From a bacterium (lineage in GTDB: Bacteria; Patescibacteriota; Minisyncoccia; UBA6257; GWB1-50-10), in the NCBI GenBank assembly GCA_021824045.1, contig JAKALR010000004.1, positions 1 through 45,115 on the forward strand: 45,115 nt of DNA. The letters are read 5' to 3'. Each line of letters begins with the position of its first letter. The stretch's first letter is position 1. Positions 8,400 through 32,860 of the stretch are shown here, piece by piece. Position numbers and translations under genes: made by a program. The notes under the pieces are model-generated. The model was not told where the DNA came from. It made no database searches and was given only the letters and a program-made list of their open reading frames with translations.

Positions 8400-8560
8400 A
8401 AACGCCCCAAAATGCAAATGAGGAACTCCGGCGAGAGGGTGAGCCGTTGCAATTCGCCGTACGGCGAATTGCTCCCTGACACCTTGCGGTTTTAGTGCTT
8501 CCACAACGGAAAACCTCCCGGTTTTCCGACCCCTTCCCCGGCTCAATCTCTCTTACACAT
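8400..8560 (-). repeat. structured element downstream of ssrA
   Basis: contains GCAATTCGCCGTACGGCGAATTGC palindrome and ggctcaatctctc (inverted T-arm-like); core similar to 28722-28760. Confidence 0.5.
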
Positions 8561-8604: not shown

Positions 8605-8605
8605 G

Positions 8606-8943
8606 TGGAGGCGGAGGGATTGAACCCTCGTCCAAGAAAGTATTCAAAAATATTCTACAAGCTTAGTTCTCCCGAGGGAGAGCGGAAATCGTTCCCGATG
8701 GTTTAACCCGTTTTATTGGGAACGCCTTTCAGCGGGCGATCCTGCGGTATGACACCGGTTACCCTCGAGCAGGAGTAAAGGACCGATGCCCGATCATAAG
8801 ACCGGGGCCGGCATTAAGCGAAAGCCAATGCCGGGGCTGCAACTTTATTGTTGGCAGTTCTTGATTTGCGACGAGTTTAACGAGATGATCGCGAGCTCGG
8901 CTTGCTACTTTTAAAGACCTCTCCTGTCGAAGCGTGCGCCCCC
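8606..8943 (-). ncRNA. ssrA: transfer-messenger RNA (tmRNA)
   Basis: tRNA-like ends GGGGGCG/CGCCTCC, GGTTCAATCCCTCC T-arm, TTCGACAGG near the 5' end, adjacent smpB; candidate tag ANNKVAAPALAFA-stop. Confidence 0.85.
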
Positions 8944-22362: not shown

Positions 22363-22392
22363 CAAAATCTATCTTGGGAGTCGAACTCCTCT

Positions 22393-28642: not shown

Positions 28643-28806
28643 ATTTGTCGGGGCGCCGAGAGTTGAACGTCGCCCTTCGCCGAACTCGGGGCTCCCACGA
28701 ACCCAGCGGTTCGTGAGCTCCGCCACGGGGAAACTCCCGTTTCCCCGACCCCTTTTCCATTCAAATCTCGAATGACTTTGATTTGTCGGGGCGCCGAGAT
28801 TTGAAC
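28643..28806 (-). repeat. tRNA-Pro 3'-end duplication element
   Basis: atttgtcggggcgccgagagttgaac (28643-28668) vs atttgtcggggcgccgagatttgaac (28781-28806), 25/26 identical. Confidence 0.75.
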
Positions 28807-28856
28807 TCAGACTAAATCCTCCCAAAGGACTCGTGCTACCGTTACACTACGCCCCG
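28786..28856 (-). tRNA. tRNA-Pro(TGG)
   Basis: CGGGGCG/CGCCCCG acceptor, loop TTTGGGA, GTTCAAAT T-loop. Confidence 0.85.
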
Positions 28857-30867: not shown

Positions 30868-31141
30868 GCCGTGGTAGCTCAGTGGTAGAGCATTCGCCTG
30901 AACTCTTCGGGCACCGATTCAGCAATGAGTCGGAGAAAACTGGGTGAATTCGGGGGAACTTCGTAAGAACAATCCCGAGCCAAGCCCCAATGCAGGATTG
31001 GGGAAGGTGTAGAGACTATCCCTTCGGGGAGTACTCCGATGCAAATCGGGGGAAGCGCCCAGCTCCGCGCAAGCGGATGATGATATAGTCCAACTTCGCA
31101 GGAAGAGCGATTGGTCGGGGGTTCGATTCCCTCCCGCGGCA
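30868..31141 (+). tRNA. tRNA-Phe(GAA) interrupted by a group I intron (exons 30868-30899 and 31102-31141)
   Basis: GCCGTGG/CCGCGGC acceptor; spliced loop CT-GAA-GA; GGGTTCGATTCC T-arm. Confidence 0.78.
30900..31101 (+). ncRNA. group I intron (tRNA-Leu-intron-like core)
   Basis: GCCT/GGGC P1 with U.G at the splice site, AATCCCGAGCCAAGCC, GGTGTAGAGACTATC, GATGATATAGTCC, terminal G. Confidence 0.75.
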
Positions 31142-31186
31142 CAAATTGCAAAGGCATCCACCTTGGGATGCCTTTGCAATTTGTGC
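31139..31186. repeat. perfect 21-bp-stem hairpin abutting tRNA-Phe
   Basis: GCACAAATTGCAAAGGCATCC-ACCTTG-GGATGCCTTTGCAATTTGTGC. Confidence 0.8.
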
Positions 31187-31342
31187 CTCTGGAATCAAAC
31201 GGAACCCGAGCACGTGTGTGGCACGATACAGCGAGGGTCCGTGGCTCCGATTCAAAGCACTAAATCCTATTTGGCATTTTAGAATTTTGAATTTATTTTT
31301 GAATTTATTTAGGATTTTGAATTTAGGATTTATAATAGTGAT

Positions 31343-32628: not shown

Positions 32629-32701
32629 GGTGGGCGTAGCTCAATGGTAGAGCATCTGCCTGTGGAGCAGAGGGTTACGGGTTCGATCCCCGTCGTCCAC
32701 C
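32629..32701 (+). tRNA. tRNA-His(GTG)
   Basis: G-1:C73, loop CTGTGGA, GGGTTCGATCCCC T-arm. Confidence 0.9.
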
Positions 32702-32860
32702 CAAAAACAAAGAGCCGCCCCTTGTGGGCGGATTTTTGTTGTTTGAATCGTTCGGGGATCGAACGGAACTTCCGCGCCCGCATTGCGGGATGAAGCGGAA
32801 GTCCGCGGCTCCGAAGGAGGAGCGAAGCGACGGGTGAGGAGGATCCCCGTCGTCCACCCA
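32685..32860 (+). repeat. tRNA-His 3'-end duplication element
   Basis: gatccccgtcgtccaccca at 32685-32703 and 32842-32860 (19/19); inverted cggggatcgaac at 32753-32764. Confidence 0.75.

Follow-up and report, generated by a model that had tools for sequence, protein, structure and literature searches.

The contig JAKALR010000004.1 (assembly GCA_021824045.1), whose 45,115 nt constitute the window analyzed here, belongs to a patescibacterial genome of 612 kb in 32 contigs (G000) and carries, behind its tRNA-Pro(tgg) gene, a compact element in which an antisense copy of the tRNA T-arm and a direct copy of the tRNA 3' end enclose a structured core. With somewhat better than even confidence, this element is read here as a small, non-autonomous, cassette-like mobile element of Patescibacteria, in which base pairing by a short guide would select the insertion site. 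The reading is backed at the sequence level by the recurrence of the element, its covarying core, its cognate guide, duplicated gene ends, targets other than tRNAs, tandem units, cargo-bearing versions and a patchy distribution; that the element moves is suggested by comparison of its sites.

At the tRNA-Pro locus (Table 1), the 3' end of the gene, GTTCAAATCTCGGCGCCCCGACAAAT (28806-28781, minus strand), is followed by an 11-nt guide, the core and then GTTCAACTCTCGGCGCCCCGACAAAT (28668-28643, minus strand), a direct copy identical to the tRNA 3' end at 25 of 26 nt; both the layout and the degree of identity reported in the initial annotation were borne out. Among 157 distinct copies of the structured-core element, a general plan is recognized: gene body, T-left, T-right with the gene end (B1), spacer, guide, core, T2-left and, finally, T-right with a second gene end (B2). 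T-left comprises 6-7 nt (GTTCRA in tRNAs), and the spacer between B1 and the guide is often the terminator of the gene itself. The guide, of 7-17 nt, stands directly before the core and is the reverse complement of a target that usually lies 25-110 nt upstream, its most consistent part being the 6-7 nt that adjoin the core. The element usually measures 130-250 bp.

The core consists of two hairpins and conserved unpaired stretches. The covariance model that had been suggested as a check was built, and across 107 different core sequences standard pairs fill 98.7% of the pair cells, with compensatory changes on both sides in 13 of the 16 pairs. The covariation score was 0.372, versus 0.129 in shuffles (0 of 500 reached the observed value), and sliding the pairing partners destroyed the signal; fitting the alignment to the model biases the result toward structure, though not to the extent observed. 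Elements fold into two to three hairpins closed by a stem of guide and T2-left. Because the fold is stable both as RNA (z -2.8) and as DNA (z -3.4), folding does not decide which is the active form. No Rfam 15 family was matched above its gathering score. At least three further core families (types 2-4) share the layout of guide and gene-end copy (L147, L148, L101, L297 and L178).

The core was present in 35 of 60 relatives and in 97 of 289 genomes of the class. An exact pattern search of a species collection recovered 60 loci, whose titles name Jorgensen-, Colwell-, Lipton-, Harrison-, Niyogi-, Vogel-, Moran-, Komeili- and Berkelbacteria and Kazan (Patescibacteria), the remainder being titles of metagenome-assembled genomes without a taxon, plus one contig labelled Omnitrophica and one labelled Nanoarchaeota. 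The Nanoarchaeota-labelled contig is as long as G007:C49, from a genome of this class, and is probably misbinned; the same is assumed of the Omnitrophica-labelled contig. The core was not found in viral contigs, phage collections or plasmid collections.

Targets are mostly tRNA T-loops, and they include ssrA, the 5' ends of fusA, lepA, typA, rplK, rnhA and dnaB, and the 3' ends of rpmG, rpsI, nusG and rplK, the names of these protein genes being supported by NCBIfam. At the protein-gene sites, the core is accompanied by antisense and direct copies of those genes' ends. Within the window's genome, the type-1 core also lies behind tRNA-Arg(tcg), tRNA-Ser(cga), tRNA-Lys(ttt), ssrA and the ribosomal protein gene rpmG; at rpmG, an antisense piece is complementary to the 3' end of the gene, and the core is followed by a second, diverged rpmG 3' end with a stop codon. 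The original view of a phenomenon tied to tRNAs thus holds at the tRNAs, whereas the confinement to them does not, as the antisense piece tracks whichever gene is the target. In every case the element has the gene body on its guide side, and the gene is therefore left intact.

These targets bear directly on a second possibility raised in the initial annotation, that of an RNA device for regulation or tRNA processing that carries an antisense T-arm. The stability of the RNA fold, the position behind tRNAs and the exact antisense match to the T-arm would suit a device of this kind. However, the existence of protein-gene targets argues against a tRNA device, and at the six 5'-end targets named above the element strand is sense to the mRNA, so that its RNA would be unable to pair, which excludes antisense regulation there. 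Furthermore, a terminator often lies between the tRNA and the element, and the element is missing at the orthologous tRNA of a congener. A regulatory or processing role of this type is considered very improbable.

The guide matches its own gene specifically. In a test on 116 distinct copies, in which an exact 7-nt seed was required, a match of at least 10 nt was found to the element's own target in 59%, to the upstream region of another element in 8.7% and to shuffled DNA in 0%. Across 224 tRNAs, an antisense match of at least 10 nt was found to a tRNA's own T-arm in ~22%, to that of another tRNA in ~3.7% and to shuffled DNA in 0.4%. The proposal that each inverted copy fits its own tRNA was therefore upheld by a cognate excess in both comparisons. 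In the tRNA-Pro orthologs of two sister genomes (G002 and G004) the T-stem differs from that in the window, and the guide differs along with it (GCCCAGATTTGAACTGG versus CGAGATTTGAA). The right end of the element follows the guide as well. One class of T2-left (GTTCGC, GTTCAAC) pairs with the guide save for the junction base; the other is GTGARA, in which R follows the target purine in 29 of 31 cases (P = 9e-7), suggesting a role for base pairing of the right end with the guide. Elements at rnhA (L051) and dnaB (L281) are apparently recent, yet their guides agree with the target over only ~7 nt, adjoining the core, suggesting that a seed of ~7 nt may be enough for targeting.

The same two loci help to weigh a fold-back origin, according to which hairpin-primed or template-switch synthesis at the terminator would have copied the antisense piece from the target as no more than a by-product, and the elements would have spread between strains by ordinary homologous recombination of gene ends. 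Such copying would account for an inverted repeat that extends from the T-arm across the acceptor end and reaches the terminator (L088, L082, L087 and L098) and for antisense T-arms that lack a core. Because L051 and L281 match over so short a seed and show no copied length, while the covarying core and the constrained pairing of right end and guide point to a functional structure, this origin is judged unlikely.

Duplicated gene ends give some indication of the history of these sites. The two ends are identical at rnhA (L051, 56 bp), fusA (L067, 65 bp; L258, 66 bp) and tRNA-Asp (L192, 51 bp), and an identical duplicated stretch of 29 bp is present at dnaB (L281); insertions with gene-end copies that are 100% identical are taken to be recent. 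The paired gene ends at rpmG, fusA (L057 and L114) and rplK (L056) diverge chiefly at synonymous codons (P = 0.0012, 0.0002, 0.0021 and <0.0001 versus random substitution), so both copies seem once to have served as functional gene ends; the simplest account is that one of them derives from another lineage. G003 lacks the element at rpmG, and G001 lacks it at tRNA-Pro. Exact head-to-tail tandems of two units each are present at tRNA-Ala (L347) and rpsI (L348), and at tRNA-Gly(gcc) a type-1 element comes after one of type 3 (L147). Cargo versions hold ordinary genes on both strands. In L186, 1.1 kb with a gene of 277 aa lies between tRNA-His and the guide; in L274, 3.3 kb encoding a GIY-YIG protein and an NYN protein lies between an intron-containing tRNA and the guide, and a 45-bp gene-end repeat stands past the core. 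A mini-element that integrates at tRNA 3' ends with att-like duplications, as first proposed, is well supported by its repetition, covariation, tandem units, cargo and absence from the two element-free sites.

Three other routes to such sites were considered. In target-primed retroposition, an RNA ending in T2-left would be reverse-transcribed at a target nick, and the gene-end copies would be target-site duplications of 20-90 bp. A precise right end with a variable left end is consistent with this route, as are direct repeats of variable length that are fully identical at the apparently recent sites (L051, L067, L258 and L192). However, reverse transcriptase was not found in the window's genome or in several carriers, including G044 with its apparently recent copy, the cargo genes lie on both strands, and the synonymous-type divergence of gene ends would need a further exchange step; retroposition is thus an improbable explanation. 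In an integron-like scheme, guide, core and T2-left would form an attC-like folded site, and a Xer/IntI-type tyrosine recombinase would insert circular cassettes at or near G|TT. The cassette topology, tandem units and cargo are as in integron arrays, the target begins with G-TT at tRNAs, and nearly all genomes (55 of 60) have Xer-type genes. Nevertheless, the target copy on the right has a left half that is part of the element itself (GTGARA or a mismatched junction base), which places the junction after 6-7 nt and not at G|TT as in an attC R box. The core, moreover, is multibranched with strongly conserved unpaired sequence rather than a single imperfect hairpin with R and L boxes, many targets lack an initial GTT, and G020, with four elements, has no tyrosine recombinase match. 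This scheme is accorded a low probability. Finally, the elements might be what is left of attachment sites used by islands or prophages with a large serine recombinase; two such islands lie between tRNA and element (L187 and L188). These islands appear, however, to have inserted in the tRNA upstream of an already complete element; the recombinase shows no association, occurring in about half of the genomes with or without the element, and is absent from the window's genome and from G053, which has 14 elements. Such an explanation is scarcely credible.

For the favoured mobile element, the following mechanism is proposed. The unit would consist of T-right with gene end B1 and a spacer or cargo, followed by guide, structured core and T2-left, and would insert between T-left and T-right, the target being a tRNA T-loop or a conserved coding motif close to the end of an essential gene. 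The gene hit in this way would remain functional, since the unit brings a complete gene end and the second gene end remains beyond the element. The guide, as RNA or single-stranded DNA, would pair with the target strand across the future junction, the 6-7 nt adjoining the core acting as seed, and would also pair with the element's own T2-left, so that a single guide would align donor end and target. Strand exchange between T-left and T-right would then be carried out on a presumed circular donor by an enzyme supplied in trans.

Several observations weigh against this proposal. About 31% of the elements lack a nearby target match that includes an exact 7-nt seed, and these are presumably decayed or displaced. 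Three elements differ between the sister genomes G002 and G004 in that the core has been lost while guide and gene-end copy persist; these polymorphisms are core losses and include no clean insertions or empty sites. In a few native flanks (including L107) an antisense T-arm is present without a core, so the antisense piece may sometimes be older than the core, and the match between guide and target could in part reflect copying from the target instead of target choice. No enzyme was linked to the element among six candidate families over the 60 relatives. Doubt attaches mainly to whether the guide determines the site or is derived from it, and to whether the element acts as RNA or as single-stranded DNA.

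Enzyme candidates were judged by presence or absence, in draft genomes that may miss genes. Reverse transcriptase, the enzyme expected of a retroelement (target-primed, retron or DGR), was rejected on the distribution described above. IS110 transposase was found in 1 of 60 relatives, and a TnpB-type (Cas12f-like nuclease) domain above the cut-off in 1 of 60 genomes, neither of them the window's; the latter search did not extend to IscB. Y1 transposase was detected in 26 of 60 genomes, with one divergent copy in the window's genome, and was not found in many carriers. Large serine recombinases were rejected for their lack of association. Xer-type tyrosine recombinases, mostly one gene per genome, were not found in the carriers G020 and G033, the search having used no model of IntI itself. 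The G020 assembly comprises 4 contigs at 98% completeness, with its four elements; in G044, which has an apparently recent fusA copy, only Xer-type genes were found among the candidate enzymes. Autonomous versions were sought by following target-less elements upstream, which led in two cases to large serine recombinase islands in the same T-loop and in one case to a cargo gene of no known family.

Further elements of the window are listed in Table 1. The initial annotation had placed the same layout at tRNA-His, ssrA, tRNA-Phe and tRNA-Gly; it was confirmed for the first three, while at tRNA-Gly(tcc) the antisense piece is clear but a core was not recognized. The G002 ortholog of this tRNA-Gly(tcc) gene has a type-1 element, and in the G004 ortholog the core is missing.

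Table 1. Targets and element parts in the window (coordinates in nt).
Feature	Position	Strand	Basis
tRNA-Pro(tgg), target gene	28785..28856	-	ARAGORN; Rfam tRNA model
tRNA-Pro target and retained gene end: T-left GTTCAAA and T-right/B1 TCTCGGCGCCCCGACAAAT	28781..28806	-	sequence
tRNA-Pro guide CGAGATTTGAA, 11 nt, exact reverse complement of T-loop/T-stem	28760..28770	-	sequence; cognate versus non-cognate test
tRNA-Pro structured core, type 1 (hairpins A and B)	28691..28758	-	covariance model R1, 87.1 bits; covariation
tRNA-Pro element, variable third stem and GCGAC lead-in to right end	28669..28690	-	sequence, fold
tRNA-Pro element right end, T2-left GTTCAAC; pairs with guide save junction base	28662..28668	-	sequence; guide/target and right-end comparisons; fold
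Second tRNA-Pro 3' end copy (T-right/B2)	28643..28661	-	sequence
ssrA (tmRNA), target of second type-1 element	8605..8943	-	ARAGORN; Rfam
ssrA guide, decayed GAGAGATTGAGCC	8540..8552	-	sequence
Type-1 core at ssrA	8471..8539	-	R1 match, 87 bits
ssrA gene-end copy, decayed GGCTCACCCTCTCGCC; pairing with its guide retained	8430..8445	-	sequence, fold
tRNA-His(gtg), target of type-2 element	32630..32702	+	ARAGORN
tRNA-His guide CGGGGATCGAAC, reverse complement of T-arm	32753..32764	+	sequence; antisense test over tRNAs
Type-2 core and right end at tRNA-His	32765..32841	+	recurrence at other tRNAs
tRNA-His 3' end copy GATCCCCGTCGTCCACCCA	32842..32860	+	sequence
Decayed type-2 element (guide GGAATCAAAC and core) behind intron-containing tRNA-Phe	31191..31250	+	sequence; recurrence of type 2
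Antisense T-arm piece GGGAGTCGAACTCC behind tRNA-Gly(tcc), core not recognized	22376..22389	+	sequence

Additional features were observed at related loci. In three elements of G053 (L096, L098 and L109), hairpin B carries a shared palindromic insert of ~290 nt. At L106, L107 and L196 the downstream copy also takes in the spacer and the antisense T-arm, and there the antisense piece may be older than the core, or a second unit may have lost its core. Large serine recombinase islands, one with terminase-like genes, span L187:5487-13551 and L188:677-3706, apparently in the same tRNA T-loops, upstream of the element. A Xer-type recombinase match at G000:C9:28304-30097 is split across a 723-aa frame (profile 2-135, then 135-171) in the pattern of an intein-like insert, and a similar split match is present in G036. 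At L001 (tRNA-Ile and tRNA-Ala) and L043 (tRNA-Lys), complete tRNA genes lie within a second, split tRNA copy, with inverted repeats on either side (an exact 17 bp in the case of tRNA-Lys), which looks like another type of insertion. A distinct palindromic repeat (TCCTTCGCTAAAGCTACGGA...) is associated with copies of tRNA 3' or 5' ends, behind tRNA-Ser(gga) in L031, behind tRNA-Gln(ctg) in L024, before tRNA-Arg(tcg) in L039 and at L274:2555-2620, and is sometimes read into a GIY-YIG protein. Group I introns interrupt the anticodon loops of tRNA-Phe (window 30868-31142) and of a tRNA-Thr (L043:340-600), and a tRNA with a CTA anticodon, labelled tRNA-Pyl by ARAGORN, adjoins tRNA-Ser(cga) at L041:1699-1772.

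Should site choice by the guide be confirmed, it would represent a new way for DNA to find an insertion site, with a very small guide and scaffold, in a phylum of tiny genomes for which few mobile elements have been described. It would also account for the origin of many of the repeated ends of tRNA and ribosomal genes that these genomes contain and show how cargo genes can be parked harmlessly behind essential genes, while circular junctions and guide-target pairs would offer a concrete handle for finding the enzyme. A broader claim, which we would sooner doubt than assert and advance only tentatively, is that of a nucleic-acid-guided integration system new to knowledge and spread through Patescibacteria, in which a 7-17-nt guide and a compact core would direct cassettes into conserved genes by means of a trans-acting enzyme unrelated to TnpB, IscB, IS110 or Cas.

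Among known systems, integron gene cassettes share with the element their topology, tandem units, optional cargo and a folded recombination site (attC) at the 3' end of each unit; unlike them, the element has a guide that matches the site, a multibranched conserved core, an exchange point after 6-7 nt and no integron integrase tied to it. In IS200/IS605 elements and their non-autonomous derivatives, a short guide sequence at the foot of a hairpin pairs with one end of the element itself as well as with the target. The likeness is one of arrangement, and the present element differs in its seed of ~7 nt up to 17 nt versus 4, in the duplication of gene ends and in the absence of Y1 from many carriers. 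The present element resembles the bridge RNA of IS110 as a structured RNA-like element that could pair with donor and target, but the DEDD transposase that would be expected in or near it was absent from 59 of 60 genomes. TnpB and IscB omega-RNAs resemble it in that a guide adjoins a structured scaffold, whereas TnpB-type domains are as rare as noted above and the element has no Rfam match. Islands integrated at tRNA 3' ends by tyrosine or serine integrases also insert in the T-loop and restore the gene end; they differ from this short element in carrying an integrase, and its guide and core have not been seen at attP sites. Group I and II introns use a short guide that pairs with the left flank (IGS- or EBS-like, 6-7 nt), but the element has no catalytic core and its gene is functional without splicing; Rfam scans did not find a group I catalytic core in it, although the group I model does detect the true intron at 30890-31112. 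No description of the element was found in the literature searched, most subscription journals lying outside it, and a description elsewhere is possible. The topology is most like that of an integron cassette and the pairing guide like that of an IS200/IS605 or bridge-RNA element, while the element fails defining tests of most of the families examined; taken together, these elements seem to be mobile elements of an undescribed type that locate their sites through base pairing.
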